A stretch of 64,000 nt of DNA, taken from Parvularcula sp. IMCC14364 (lineage in GTDB: Bacteria > Pseudomonadota > Alphaproteobacteria > Caulobacterales > Parvularculaceae). Within the stretch, counting starts at the first letter, position 1. Each line of letters opens with the position of its first letter. The notes under the pieces are model-generated. The model was given only the letters and a program-made list of their open reading frames with translations, was not told where the DNA came from and searched no databases. Positions 8,795-37,420 of the stretch are shown here, piece after piece. Location: positions 1,488,001 to 1,552,000 of the forward strand of contig NZ_CP132334.1 in assembly GCF_030758415.1 (NCBI RefSeq), read 5' to 3'. Position numbers and translations under genes: made by a program.

Positions 8795-9646
8795 GTGGCC
8801 GAGACTGATTATATTCTGAAAATCCGGTCACCGGACAGGCCCGGCATTCTGGCGGAAGTATCGACATTTCTTTCCTCAAAAGGGGCGGATATCCGTGATG
8901 CTGCCCAATATGGTGACCCGGAACCCAGCAGCTTTTTCATCCGGATACACCTGACATCACCGCAGGCATCTCATGAAGAATTGTGTGCCGCATTTGGCCC
9001 CGTCGCACAAAAGCGCGCATTCGATTGGGGGCTGCATCCAGCAGAAAAAAAATGCCGGGTGCTGCTGGCTGTATCGAGGCACGGCCATTGCCTTGTTGAC
9101 CTCTTGCATCGGTGGCAGATCAATGCCCTGCCGGTCGATATTGTCGGCGTTGTCTCCAATCACCGGGTCATGGAAGACATCACGAACGTCTACGGCCTGC
9201 CATTTCATTATCTGCCCGTCAGCAAAGAAACCAAACAGACGCAGGAAGAACAGTTCCAGCGGCTGATTGACGAAACAAGCGCTGATCTAGTGGTGCTGGC
9301 GCGCTATATGCAAATCCTGTCAAACGCCTTTGCGCAACGGCTGGAAGGGCGCTGCATAAACATCCACCACTCTTTTTTGCCCAGTTTCAAAGGCGCACGC
9401 CCTTATCATCAGGCGCATGGCCGGGGCGTCAAGTTGATCGGCGCAACGGCGCATTACGTCACGCCAGACCTGGATGAGGGGCCAATCATCGAGCAGGATG
9501 TCAAACGCGTCACCCATGCGCAGACACCAGACGCGCTGGTGAGTATTGGCCGGGATGTGGAATCCCAGGTGCTGGCCAGGGCCATTCGCTGGCATGCCGA
9601 GCACCGCGTCTTTATCAGCGGCCGCAAGACAGTCGTGCTTGCCTGA
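8795..9646 (+). CDS. purU: Formyltetrahydrofolate deformylase
   Basis: 283 residues. An N-terminal ACT domain (about 5-80, S-P-D-R-P-G-I-L-A-E-V) is joined to a formyltransferase-fold hydrolase domain. The latter has N-I-H-H-S-F-L-P-S-F-K-G-A-R-P-Y near residue 193 and G-A-T-A-H-Y-V-T-P-D-L-D-E-G-P-I-I. It hydrolyses 10-formyl-THF to formate and THF. The start is GTG at 8795. The GGGAGAG ribosome binding site partly lies in a 6-pair hairpin (arms 8768-8773 and 8781-8786), which could modulate translation; that is an inference. Confidence 0.95.
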   Translation: MAETDYILKIRSPDRPGILAEVSTFLSSKGADIRDAAQYGDPEPSSFFIRIHLTSPQASHEELCAAFGPVAQKRAFDWGLHPAEKKCRVLLAVSRHGHCLVDLLHRWQINALPVDIVGVVSNHRVMEDITNVYGLPFHYLPVSKETKQTQEEQFQRLIDETSADLVVLARYMQILSNAFAQRLEGRCINIHHSFLPSFKGARPYHQAHGRGVKLIGATAHYVTPDLDEGPIIEQDVKRVTHAQTPDALVSIGRDVESQVLARAIRWHAEHRVFISGRKTVVLA

Positions 9647-9687: not shown

Positions 9688-9716
9688 TTGCAATGAGAAC
9701 ATATAGTGAATATATG
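9688..9716 (+). promoter_or_regulatory. Promoter of the small SOS-type gene
   Basis: TTGCAA at 9688-9693, a 17-base spacer and TATATG at 9711-9716 form a good sigma-70-type promoter. Initiation would fall near 9723, inside the LexA-type operator. An imperfect operator half-pair (GAAC-N7-GAAT, 9697-9711) lies across the spacer. Confidence 0.6.
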
Positions 9717-9721
9717 ATTGA

Positions 9722-9736
9722 GAACATAAGCTGAAC
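9722..9736 (+). promoter_or_regulatory. LexA operator (GAAC-N7-GAAC)
   Basis: GAAC at 9722-9725 and GAAC at 9733-9736 are separated by exactly seven bases. This is the alphaproteobacterial LexA box in reverse orientation. It matches in type the site in front of this window's own lexA (37406-37420). Its position at the predicted transcription start fits repression. Confidence 0.75.
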
Positions 9737-9751
9737 ACAAGGAGACAGGTA

Positions 9752-9847
9752 ATGTCAAATGAAGTCAATATCCGTGATGCGCTGGGCCTGACTGTTTTGA
9801 TCGGCCTGATTGCCACTGTGAACATGTGGAGCGGTCTTTTGATCTGA
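9752..9847 (+). CDS. 31-residue single-pass membrane protein, SOS-type (SidA-like)
   Basis: The ATG at 9752 is preceded by AAGGAGA at a seven-base distance, an excellent ribosome binding site. The product is 31 residues: a charged N-terminus (M-S-N-E-V-N-I-R-D) followed by one hydrophobic segment (residues 10-31, A-L-G-L-T-V-L-I-G-L-I-A). It ends four hydrophobic residues after a Trp-Ser-Gly. Upstream sit a good promoter and a LexA-type operator. Family knowledge: Caulobacter SidA is an SOS-induced inner-membrane division inhibitor of about the same size and topology. Sequence homology to it was not tested, so the shared role is inferred. dnaE starts 75 bases downstream and may share the transcript. 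Confidence 0.65.
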   Translation: MSNEVNIRDALGLTVLIGLIATVNMWSGLLI

Positions 9848-9922
9848 ATGACAGGCATTTTTTTCCGGCGGTGTGGGAAACAGGGAGCTGCCTGTCAGCA
9901 TGACTCCGGTTAGGAATATTCT

Positions 9923-12900
9923 ATGCAGCCTTTTATTCATCTTCACCTCCACTCGTCCTATTCGCTCGCTGAAGGGGCGATCCACATCAAGAAGCTGAAA
10001 GAGCTATGCCTTCAGCACGAGATGCCAGCGGTTGCGGTTACGGATACCAATAATCTTTTCGGGGCACTGGAAGCCTCAGAAGTCCTGAGTGACGCAGGCA
10101 TTCAGTCAATATCAGGCTTGCAGATAGCGCTCGATCCCGAAGAACTGGATCTCCATCTGGAGCGTTACGAGCCTTTGCCGTCGCTGGTACTTCTGGCGCA
10201 AAATGAGCGTGGCTATCTCAACCTGATGAAGCTGACGAGCCAGGCGTTTCTCAAAACCGCAGCCGAAGGTACAATTCACACCACCATGGCCGCGCTGGAA
10301 CAGCATGCCGAGGGGCTCATTTGCCTCACTGGCGGCGTCAACGGTCCAATAGACCGGTTACTCAAAGACAGTCGCAAGGATGAAGCCAGAAACTTTCTTG
10401 GCAGATTACAGGCGCTCTATCCTGACAGACTGTATATTGAAATACAGCGCATCGCGGATGCCAGAGCACATCACATGACTGCCTACGAAAATGAATTGCT
10501 GGCACTGGCTTACACGACAAGTCTGCCGCTGGTTGCAACCAACGAGCCATTCTTTGCTGCCCGCGACGACTATGAGGCACATGATGCCCTTTTGTGCATC
10601 TCTGGCGGCGCCTATATCCAGCAGGACGACCGGCGCAAGGTAACGCCTGACAATTATTTCCGCTCCAGCGCCGAAATGATCGCCCTTTTTGAAGACCTCC
10701 CTGAAGCAGTTGAAAACACCTGTGTTATCGCAAAGCGCTGTGCTTTCCGGCCGCGCACCCATGCGCCGATCCTGCCGAACTTTGTCGAGGGGGATGTTGA
10801 CGGTGAAGCGAAGGAGCTTGAGCGGCAGGCGCGCGATGGTTTGCGCGCGCGGCTGGAACAGGTTGAACTTGCTGAACCGGAGGAAGAATACTGGAACAGA
10901 TTGGATATCGAGCTTGGCATTATCAACCGCATGGGGTTTCCCGGCTACTTTCTGATCGTTGCTGACTTCATTAAATGGGCCAAGCAGCATGACATCCCTG
11001 TCGGGCCGGGCAGGGGGTCGGGGGCAGGCTCGGTGGTTGCCTGGGCTCTAACGATTACAAATCTGGACCCGTTGCGGTTTGGCCTTCTGTTTGAGCGTTT
11101 CCTTAATCCGGAACGTGTCTCCATGCCGGATTTCGACGTTGATTTCTGTCAGGACCGGCGTGATGAGGTCATCTCCTATGTGCAGGACAAATACGGGACG
11201 GACCGTGTTGCCCAGATCATCACCTTTGGTAAATTGCAGGCCCGCGCGGTGCTGCGTGATGTCGGGCGTGTACTGAATTTACCGTTCGGACAGGTAGACC
11301 GTCTCTGCAAGATGGTGCCAAACAATCCCGCCAACCCTGTCACCCTGGCTGAGGCTATCGAAACCGAGCCGCGCCTGCGGCAGGAGCGGGACAGCGAGGA
11401 GCAGGTGGCGGACCTGATGACAAAGTCGCTCAAGCTTGAGGGGCTCTATCGGCACGCTTCCACCCACGCTGCGGGTGTTGTCATCGGTGACCGGCCACTG
11501 GATGAGCTGGTGCCACTATATCTTGATCCGCGCTCTGACATGCCTGCCACGCAGTTCAACATGAAGTGGGTTGAGCCAGCCGGTCTCGTCAAGTTCGATT
11601 TCCTCGGGCTCAAAACCCTGACCGTGATTCAGCGTGCCCTCGATCTGATGAAACAGAACGGCGTCAGTGTTGATATTGATGCGATCCCGCTTGATGATCG
11701 GGGCACGTTCGAAATGCTCGGGGAAGGCAATGCGGTCGGTGTGTTCCAGCTGGAAAGCACGGGTATGCGCTCAACTCTGAAAGGGCTCAAGCCGGATACA
11801 CTCGAGGACATTATCGCGCTCGTCTCACTGTACCGCCCCGGTCCAATGGAAAATATTCCAACTTATATCGAGCGCAAGTTTGGCCGTGAAGAGCCTGATT
11901 ATCTGCATGAGAAACTGACCGGTATTCTGACTGAAACCTATGGGGTCATCATCTATCAGGAGCAGGTGATGCAGATTGCCCAGATTCTTTCTGGCTACTC
12001 GCTGGGCGAAGCTGACCTTTTGCGCCGGGCGATGGGCAAGAAGAAAAAAGAGGAGATGGACAAGCAGAAAATCCGGTTCGTCGAAGGCGCAGAAAAAAAT
12101 AATGTCGACAGGTCCAAGGCTGAATCCATTTTTGAGCTTGTGGCCAAATTTGCCGGTTACGGTTTCAACAAGTCACATGCTGCTGCCTATGCCCTGATCG
12201 CCTATCAGACTGCCTGGCTCAAGCATAATCACATGGCGGAGTTTTTTGCTGCCTCGATGTCCCTCGATAAGGCCAACACCGACAAGCTCGCGATTTTCAT
12301 GAAGGACGCTAGACGATGCGACGTTGAGGTGAGGGCACCGGATGTCAATTTGTCAGAAGCGGATTTCACCGTTCACGAAGGGGCGGTCGTTTATGCCCTG
12401 GCGGCGATCAAGAATGTGGGCGAACAGGCCATGGCCCATATCGCGGAAACACGACGTGCAGGGGGGCCGTTTACAGATATCTATGATTTCGCGGAACGTG
12501 TTGACGGCCGTCAGATCGGCAAGCGCGGGTTTGAGAATCTTGCAAAGGCCGGTGCTTTTGACACGATCCACAAAAACCGTGCGCAGATTGTGGAAATGGC
12601 GGACTTTCTGGTGCGCTATTCCGCAAAGGCAGCGGATGAGCGTACCAGCGATCAGGGGGGACTGTTTGATCTAGGGGGCGGCACCGCCCTCGAGCGCCCC
12701 ACGCTCAAGGCTGTTGAGGAGTGGTTGCCGATTGATCGACTGGACTTCGAGCGTGCCGTGATCGGTTTTTATTTTTCCGGGCATCCGCTGGATGATTATG
12801 CCAGCAGTCTCGAGAAGCTGAAGGTGATCCCCTATAGCGATGTCGCTGCCACCGTTGAAGCAGAGGGCGGGCGTGTTTTCATCAAGCTTGCTGGTGTCAT

Positions 12901-13372
12901 CCGTGCTTTCAACCCTCGCCGGGCCAAGTCCGGGAAGCCTTTCGCCTGGGTAGAACTGTCCGATCAGAGTGGTGAGTTTGAAATTACCGTCTTTTCGGAA
13001 CTTTTGGAAACTGCCCGTGATATGCTTCAGCCCGGCACACTTGTCATGGTGGGCCTCTCGGCGGAGGAGCGTGAGGGCGATATCAGGCTGACCGGTGAGA
13101 CGATACAGCTTCTCGACAAGGCAGCCGCCGCGACGCAGGCTGAACTCAGAATATCTGTCACCAGTGCAGATGCGTTGAATTCTGTTCGCCGCCGCCTCTA
13201 CGAACTCGGCAGCAAGGGCGGCACCGGAACGGGGACAGCCCTGCTGCATTTTTTCCTGCCGGATAATGGTTATGAGGTTGAACTGAAACTCCCCGGCGAC
13301 TTCAACACCACTGCAGCACTCAAAGGTGCCTTGAAAACCATCGACGGGGTTGCCGATGTTGAGTTGCGATAA
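9923..13372 (+). CDS. dnaE: DNA polymerase III alpha subunit
   Basis: 1149 residues, the replicative polymerase. The N-terminal PHP domain begins F-I-H-L-H-L-H-S-S-Y-S. The palm carries G-P-G-R-G-S-G-A-G-S near residue 360 and the catalytic P-D-F-D-V-D-F near 402. G-F-N-K-S-H-A-A-A-Y-A-L-I-A-Y is in the fingers (about 748-762). The OB-fold spans roughly residues 960-1050. Length and domain order are those of DnaE1, not the error-prone DnaE2. A LexA-type operator and promoter lie about 190 bases upstream, before a small membrane ORF, so dnaE could receive SOS read-through; no terminator is seen between them. Confidence 0.97.
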   Translation: MQPFIHLHLHSSYSLAEGAIHIKKLKELCLQHEMPAVAVTDTNNLFGALEASEVLSDAGIQSISGLQIALDPEELDLHLERYEPLPSLVLLAQNERGYLNLMKLTSQAFLKTAAEGTIHTTMAALEQHAEGLICLTGGVNGPIDRLLKDSRKDEARNFLGRLQALYPDRLYIEIQRIADARAHHMTAYENELLALAYTTSLPLVATNEPFFAARDDYEAHDALLCISGGAYIQQDDRRKVTPDNYFRSSAEMIALFEDLPEAVENTCVIAKRCAFRPRTHAPILPNFVEGDVDGEAKELERQARDGLRARLEQVELAEPEEEYWNRLDIELGIINRMGFPGYFLIVADFIKWAKQHDIPVGPGRGSGAGSVVAWALTITNLDPLRFGLLFERFLNPERVSMPDFDVDFCQDRRDEVISYVQDKYGTDRVAQIITFGKLQARAVLRDVGRVLNLPFGQVDRLCKMVPNNPANPVTLAEAIETEPRLRQERDSEEQVADLMTKSLKLEGLYRHASTHAAGVVIGDRPLDELVPLYLDPRSDMPATQFNMKWVEPAGLVKFDFLGLKTLTVIQRALDLMKQNGVSVDIDAIPLDDRGTFEMLGEGNAVGVFQLESTGMRSTLKGLKPDTLEDIIALVSLYRPGPMENIPTYIERKFGREEPDYLHEKLTGILTETYGVIIYQEQVMQIAQILSGYSLGEADLLRRAMGKKKKEEMDKQKIRFVEGAEKNNVDRSKAESIFELVAKFAGYGFNKSHAAAYALIAYQTAWLKHNHMAEFFAASMSLDKANTDKLAIFMKDARRCDVEVRAPDVNLSEADFTVHEGAVVYALAAIKNVGEQAMAHIAETRRAGGPFTDIYDFAERVDGRQIGKRGFENLAKAGAFDTIHKNRAQIVEMADFLVRYSAKAADERTSDQGGLFDLGGGTALERPTLKAVEEWLPIDRLDFERAVIGFYFSGHPLDDYASSLEKLKVIPYSDVAATVEAEGGRVFIKLAGVIRAFNPRRAKSGKPFAWVELSDQSGEFEITVFSELLETARDMLQPGTLVMVGLSAEEREGDIRLTGETIQLLDKAAAATQAELRISVTSADALNSVRRRLYELGSKGGTGTGTALLHFFLPDNGYEVELKLPGDFNTTAALKGALKTIDGVADVELR

Positions 13373-36616: not shown

Positions 36617-37339
36617 TTAATATTGCCGAAGGAGGCCAACCAGCCTGCCCTGTACCTTCACGCGATTGGGACCAAATATGCGCGTCTCATAAGCTGGGTT
36701 GGCGGCTTCCAGGGCTATTGAAGCACCTTTCTTCCGCAAGCGTTTCAGTGTCGCTTCTTCTTCATCAACCAGTGCAACCACAATGTCGCCAGAGCCAGCA
36801 TCATCAGACTGCTTGATAAGCACAATGTCACCATCGTGAATACCAGCGTCGATCATTGAATCACCCTGAACTTCAAGCGCGTAATGCTCTCCCGACCCAA
36901 GCATGGCTTTGGGGACAGAAAAACGGTCCTGTTCATGCTGAATAGCGCTGATCGGCGTACCCGCTGCGATACGCCCCAGGACAGAAACCTCTACGACATT
37001 ATCATTATTGCTGACAGGCAGCTCCGTAACATTGTCGCGTTTTTGCCTGTTGCCGCCTGTGCCCTCAATAACTGAAGGCGAAAAGCCTTTTTTACGCTGC
37101 TTGATTGATTCTTCAGAAGCCAGGTCATCAGGCAATCTCAGTACCTCTAGAGCACGGGCGCGATGTGGCAGGCGACGGATAAATCCACGCTCCTCGAGCG
37201 CTGTAATGAGCCTGTGAATGCCGGACTTGGATTTAAGGTCCAGCGCCTCTTTCATTTCATCAAAAGAGGGAGAAATACCTGTTTCGCGGATCCGCTTGTC
37301 GATAAAAACCAGTAATTCGCGTTGTTTCGCAGTCAGCAT
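36617..37339 (-). CDS. lexA: LexA repressor
   Basis: 240 residues from the ATG at 37339, with AGGA upstream; the in-frame TTG two codons earlier was rejected. The N-terminal winged helix (1-65) is [10 protein letters not shown]. The autocleavage site Ala-Gly is in G-R-I-A-A-G-T-P; the catalytic Ser is in [10 protein letters not shown] and the Lys in E-A-T-L-K-R. A GTTC-N7-GTTC operator lies upstream, so the gene is autoregulated. It ends next to the 3' part of comEC, in the opposite direction. Confidence 0.96.
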
Positions 37340-37405
37340 CTTCAATCCTTTTCCGGGTGGTCAGATAACGAATCTGCACAACCTCCATGAGAACAAATCA
37401 TGTAT

Positions 37406-37420
37406 GTTCTAGTGATGTTC
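37406..37420 (-). promoter_or_regulatory. LexA operator (GTTC-N7-GTTC) of lexA
   Basis: GTTC at 37406-37409 and GTTC at 37417-37420, seven bases apart, 67 bases upstream of the lexA start. This is the canonical alphaproteobacterial SOS box. A further GAAC at 37391-37394 lies beside it. Confidence 0.85.

Follow-up and report, generated by a model that had tools for sequence, protein, structure and literature searches.

Organisation of the locus upstream of dnaE

The window, which is the whole 64,000-nucleotide stretch of DNA that was analysed, carries a short open reading frame (ORF) whose predicted product has one hydrophobic segment, located between a replicative-type dnaE gene and an upstream gene whose sequence reads as purU-like (Table 1). 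The elements described at this site in the initial annotation, namely a promoter (TTGCAA-17-TATATG), an exact GAAC-N7-GAAC box with a near copy ahead of it, a strong ribosome binding site and a 31-codon ORF directly upstream of dnaE, are all present. The consensus scan found no promoters (0); the one read here falls short of its threshold and is thus a weak match as read. The near box sits inside the promoter spacer, its last base forming the first base of the -10 element, and the exact box is expected to cover the transcription start. The same -35/-10 arrangement around two boxes is also visible in relatives. No terminator-like site was found in the 75-nt gap between the ORF and dnaE, the one respect in which the cotranscription suggested as possible in the initial annotation was examined. 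The purU-like neighbour recurs in three of the 26 loci fetched. Elsewhere in the window, a gene for the presumed repressor LexA is preceded by an exact box, through which it is expected to regulate itself.

Table 1. Features of the peptide-dnaE locus and of the lexA locus in the window
Feature	Position	Strand	Remarks
Upstream gene, purU-like	8795..9646	+	
Putative promoter, TTGCAA (9688-9693), 17 nt, TATATG (9711-9716)	9688..9716	+	Direct reading
Predicted second LexA-type operator GAACATATAGTGAAT	9697..9711	+	Near box, GAAC-N7-GAAT, one mismatch
Predicted exact LexA-type operator GAACATAAGCTGAAC	9722..9736	+	GAAC-N7-GAAC
Ribosome binding site AAGGAGA	9739..9745	+	
Probable SidA ortholog, 31 aa MSNEVNIRDALGLTVLIGLIATVNMWSGLLI	9752..9847	+	One hydrophobic segment; ATG at 9752, stop ends at 9847, 31 codons
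dnaE, replicative type	9923..13372	+	ATG at 9923; begins 75 nt past the peptide stop
lexA, presumed repressor	36623..37342	-	TIGR00498, 175.6 bits, over cut-off
Exact LexA box	37406..37420	-	About 64 nt before lexA

An inverted repeat (TGACAGGCA / TGCCTGTCA) lies within the gap between the ORF and dnaE (window 9848-9895) and, judged by eye, shows no conservation in the two closest relatives (G001 and G004). Near this repeat, TGTGGGAAA is kept in four of six members of the genus.

Conservation and selection of the peptide

The 31-residue product has matches at E ≤ 1 in 23 of the 61 genomes searched, and dnaE adjoins the peptide match in 20 of the 26 loci fetched. An exact GAAC-N7-GAAC box is found upstream of the start in 17 of these 20 dnaE-linked loci, with a GAAC-N7-GAAT copy further upstream in fifteen; an exact box is lacking upstream of the peptide start in the remaining three loci (L012, L013 and L014). 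Codon-level counts for three genomes of the window's genus give a dN/dS of approximately 0.09 (dN 0.079, dS 0.845), the ratio ranges from 0.15 to 0.22 in four other peptide sets, and third positions account for the majority of variable sites in every set. The peptide ORF is conserved as a gene and evolves under purifying selection. Conservation in close relatives, the lack of which the initial annotation had named as one refutation of its own reading, was observed, with the peptide and LexA-type boxes occurring upstream of dnaE in three families of the order. When four of the peptides were compared against Pfam and NCBIfam, none exceeded the cut-off, and two Pfam names, Asp4 and VUPS, appeared below it.

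Synteny with dnaE across the order

The dnaE gene could be located in 197 of the 200 genomes of the order, and the upstream DNA of 128 dnaE genes, chosen by family and by listed coordinates, was examined with a rule that makes no use of sequence similarity. It selects an ATG or GTG ORF of 24 to 40 codons with a hydrophobic product, located 15 to 90 nt behind a box (at most one mismatch) and within 520 nt of dnaE. Such an ORF was found in 37/41 genomes of the window's own family (f1), 30/31 of the Caulobacter family (f3) and 31/31 of family f5, and in 0/12 and 0/13 genomes, respectively, of families f2 and f4 (0/25 together). With exact boxes only, the counts are 37 (f1), 21 (f3), 23 (f5), 0 (f2) and 0 (f4), while the reverse-complement control yielded 1/128 and dinucleotide shuffles an expectation of about 0.1 in total. 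The f1 genomes missed are G003 and G009, in which the peptide is present with no box inside the limits, G526, where a copy lies on another contig, and G029; in the sole f3 genome missed (G042) the peptide is present with a hydropathy below the limit. The distance of the peptide start to dnaE varies, from approximately 104 to 436 nt. At least two boxes (at most one mismatch) occur within 110 nt of the start in 35/37 f1, 29/30 f3 and 24/31 f5 positives, spaced mostly 18 nt apart in f1 and 17 to 18 nt in f3, and 25 nt apart in the window and in nine f5 pairs.

A profile built from alignment A3, which comprises 27 peptides, matched 106/200 genomes of the order at E ≤ 0.001 (29 in f1 and 77 in f3 or f5, with no f2 or f4 genome among them), which is not an independent count, since many rows of the profile stem from the matched genomes. 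In G526 the family peptide (G526:C33:21719-21802) and the dnaE located in this genome are on different contigs, which may reflect relocation, a second dnaE or contamination.

The box motif and SOS genes of the genome

Two copies of the exact box occur in the window, against 1.74 expected by chance, and 74 occur genome-wide, against 103 for the reversed control pattern. Since the box counts alone are not above chance, the significance of a box derives from its place and its conservation, and it is on conservation that the present case rests. The motif also precedes recA (box at 662821, gene from 662993). Twenty regions around boxes out of the 74 were inspected, a biased sample picked mostly for A/T-rich spacers, and among these a box precedes lexA, ssb, dprA and two IMS-family (pol IV-like) polymerase genes. 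A second dnaE-type gene (G000:C1:1353199) follows an IMS-family gene with a box, an imuB-dnaE2 arrangement. A box also precedes a yifB-like and a DNA-glycosylase-like gene, both names being derived from matches below the cut-off or partial. The remaining regions of the twenty sampled gave no such gene, and include two ORFs without a family match and one phage portal gene. This biased sample supports GAAC-N7-GAAC as the putative SOS box of the genome. The motif is GTTC-N7-GTTC on the opposite strand, which is the motif reported for the Caulobacter LexA protein (PMC12700426).

The two ORFs without a family match, of 105 (L285, G000:C1:1362463) and 123 residues (L278, G000:C1:115637), lie behind A/T-rich boxes, have no Pfam or NCBIfam match at E ≤ 0.01, and are candidate SOS genes of unknown type. 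A LexA-type box just ahead of the HK97-type phage portal gene (L295, G000:C1:2627320) is possibly a sign of SOS control of a prophage, or a chance occurrence.

Relationship to the Caulobacter peptide

Caulobacter belongs to family f3, in the same order as the genome of the window. A scan of named genomes with a DnaE N-terminus yielded 63 loci. In 44 of the 45 loci L184 to L228, the titles of which are mostly Caulobacter, Phenylobacterium, Brevundimonas or Caulobacteraceae, with a few less precise, such a peptide, mostly of 29 to 30 residues, is encoded with a box (at most one mismatch) upstream of dnaE; the lone exception, L192, includes only 42 nt of upstream DNA. No boxes were found in the seventeen loci L230 to L246, which belong to other groups (exact boxes sought within 500 nt, boxes with one mismatch within 300 nt). 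The Caulobacter vibrioides peptides upstream of dnaE (L185 and L190) have 29 residues and a box, and a C. vibrioides peptide showed no match at E ≤ 1 among solved structures. SidA is described as a 29-aa inner-membrane inhibitor of cell division which interacts with FtsW (PMC4211646). Its gene carries the locus tag CCNA_02004 (PMC10769358), while dnaE is tagged CC1926 (PMC1839093) and the recN pair CC1983 and ccna_02062 places an offset of 79 between the two tag series. With this offset, the tags of sidA and dnaE indicate that the two genes are neighbours or lie within a gene or two of each other. On the basis of length, slot and locus tags, the 29-aa peptide encoded before dnaE in C. vibrioides is taken to be SidA.

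A direct match between the f1 and f3 peptides fails, as the f1 profile recognised 0/13 f3 peptides and the f3 profile 0/23 f1 peptides over the 1% shuffle threshold. At the same threshold the f5 profile recognises 12/13 f3 and 10/23 f1 peptides, and a profile of family f8, built from three sequences only, recognises 12/13 and 12/23, respectively. Homology between the f1 and f3 peptides would thus be transitive, by way of f5 and f8, and positional. The SidA-like character proposed in the initial annotation is supported by the conserved peptide and its boxes at dnaE in three families, including that of Caulobacter, and by purifying selection, and "positional ortholog of SidA" would appear to describe the ORF better than "SidA-like".

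Occurrence in the class Alphaproteobacteria

A peptide-only search with the first alignment matched 17/385 genomes of the class at E ≤ 0.05, with dnaE present in three of the seventeen loci, all of family f8. A later profile search of 385 class genomes matched 29 at the same threshold, and twelve of the 28 newly fetched loci contain dnaE, eight of them outside the order. As the peptide-only search with the first alignment was weak, synteny with dnaE was used instead. The dnaE gene was found in 149/153 class genomes, and under looser limits the synteny rule retained 18 of 110 class regions (92 failing), compared to three in the reverse-complement control. Two candidates were dropped before scoring: that of G216 reads, by eye, like the tail of an ABC-transporter protein, and G038 belongs to the same order as the window, the ORFs listed there being other frames. 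Sixteen candidates in fourteen further families remain, two of which (G063 and G202) had already been found by profile search, and eleven of the sixteen exceed the 1% shuffle threshold when scored with a profile restricted to peptides of the window's own order. Recurring features are a charged pair (for instance KD, RD or RE), a run of small residues or AL, and frequently a tryptophan late in the span. This distribution suggests a gene that is old in the Alphaproteobacteria and has been lost many times. The five weakly scoring candidates (both of f46, those of f57 and f127, and one of f9) could instead be peptides of other descent that occupy this position, or chance occurrences.

Proposed function and alternative explanations

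The ORF is very probably an ortholog of Caulobacter sidA, and would code for a SidA-type divisome-inhibiting peptide, repressed by LexA and released upon DNA damage. Binding by LexA, induction, insertion into the membrane, and the target and effect of the peptide are inferred. In the undamaged cell, LexA would silence the gene from two operators, located in the promoter spacer and at the start site. DNA damage would activate RecA, leading to LexA cleavage and release of the promoter, whereupon the 31-residue peptide, with its single span, would be made and enter the inner membrane. By analogy with SidA it would bind the late divisome (FtsW and FtsN) and hold septal wall synthesis inactive, with the divisome not dispersed, until repair is complete. 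SidA has been described as acting on the FtsW/FtsI/FtsN complex inside the assembled divisome (PMC4211646), and a low-confidence AlphaFold 3 prediction places it at FtsW TM7 (PMC13396833). Counting against this assignment are the failure of direct profile recognition between f1 and f3, the f1 genomes with the peptide but no box inside the limits or with a copy on another contig, the lack of the peptide at dnaE in families f2 and f4, and box counts that do not exceed chance.

Overproduced SidA blocks division, with suppressors in ftsW and ftsI. FtsW is encoded in the genome of the window (L416, G000:C1:1888211-1889248, minus strand), and ten FtsW sequences, from 11 genomes searched, were compared. 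At the published SidA-escape positions A31, F145 and A246, the FtsW of the window's genome has C, V and the original A, respectively, and the two differences count against the SidA assignment. Across the ten sequences A31 varies and A246 is invariant. The published escape change at position 145 (F145L) is the natural state in the three compared genomes that lack the peptide at dnaE (two from f2, one from f4), but L also occurs in f8, where the peptide is present. With L found both with and without the peptide, and V in the FtsW of the window's genome, this position decides nothing. At a conserved loop for which the nine other aligned sequences have G-x-GPGEG, the FtsW of the window's genome reads GGLLGNPDTE--IK; the change is an unusual one and affects the protein targeted by SidA.

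A LexA-controlled membrane peptide could also serve another purpose. TisB is a small SOS-controlled peptide with a single hydrophobic span, and toxic peptides of the TisB/DinQ type have an antisense RNA partner and depolarise the membrane. Depolarisation of this kind, or modulation of other membrane processes during damage, is an improbable role for the window peptide: it has its size, single hydrophobic span and presumed SOS control in common with such peptides (for DinQ, PMC3567139) and its C-terminal third is unlike that of the Caulobacter peptides, but the slot and the boxes match those of the Caulobacter peptide taken to be SidA, and the recurrent charged pair before the span and a tryptophan conserved in most rows of the window's family go beyond mere hydrophobicity.

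The proximity of dnaE, 75 nt away with no terminator-like site found in between, and the tight synteny in three families would agree with an ORF that acts as a leader or upstream ORF to control how dnaE is translated or transcribed and yields no functional peptide. Selection at the amino-acid level, the variable distance to dnaE, the SOS-type boxes and the G526 copy, which does not adjoin the dnaE located in that genome, nevertheless make such a role very unlikely. That a chance ORF lies next to a chance box is hardly credible; the box counts in the window and the genome would allow it, but it is refuted by the conservation, the dN/dS values and the reverse-complement and shuffle controls.

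Under the favoured interpretation as a sidA ortholog, a more tentative possibility, which we consider somewhat doubtful, is that sidA arose outside Caulobacter and is an ancient alphaproteobacterial checkpoint gene physically locked to dnaE, forming a LexA-operated sidA-dnaE unit whose derepression would stop division and raise or reshape dnaE transcription, with patchy loss. Its occurrence before dnaE in three families of the order, and less certainly in fourteen further families of the class, would turn SidA from a single-species factor into a general alphaproteobacterial checkpoint. Natural peptide variants could then map the FtsW contact, while dnaE together with a LexA box would provide a simple annotation route for peptides that fall below the Pfam and NCBIfam cut-offs, as the four members compared do. 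It also raises the question of why a division brake is tied to a polymerase gene. SidA is studied in one species in the cited papers, and no description of it outside Caulobacter was found among the matches listed from titles and abstracts of the open-access literature; the 2011 discovery paper may discuss its conservation.

Comparison with known division inhibitors

The window peptide resembles SidA in its length of about 30 residues, its single hydrophobic span, the [R/K][D/E] pair before this span and its slot directly upstream of dnaE, as in the C. vibrioides records. The SidA hallmark of a LexA box in the promoter has its counterpart in the exact and the near box, both predicted operators. 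It differs in its longer acidic N-terminus, in a tryptophan near the C-terminus which most rows of the Caulobacter family lack, and in an identity of just 17% with the C. vibrioides row of A3.

Among the other small membrane inhibitors of division, YneA carries a LysM domain. DidA of Caulobacter crescentus is described as induced by DNA damage and acting on the FtsW/FtsI/FtsN complex (PMC4211646); unlike the window peptide, it has 71 aa, is SOS-independent and DriD-driven, and is encoded at another locus. YneA, SosA and ChiZ, the latter also with a LysM domain, are the damage-induced small membrane division inhibitors of Bacillus, Staphylococcus and Mycobacterium, respectively, for which contact with FtsW TM7 is predicted, SidA being placed on the opposite side of TM7 (PMC13396833). 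SulA of Escherichia coli, an SOS-induced division inhibitor, disrupts FtsZ polymerisation (PMC4211646). The comparison of the window peptide with YneA, SosA and ChiZ, and equally with SulA, is made at the level of description.
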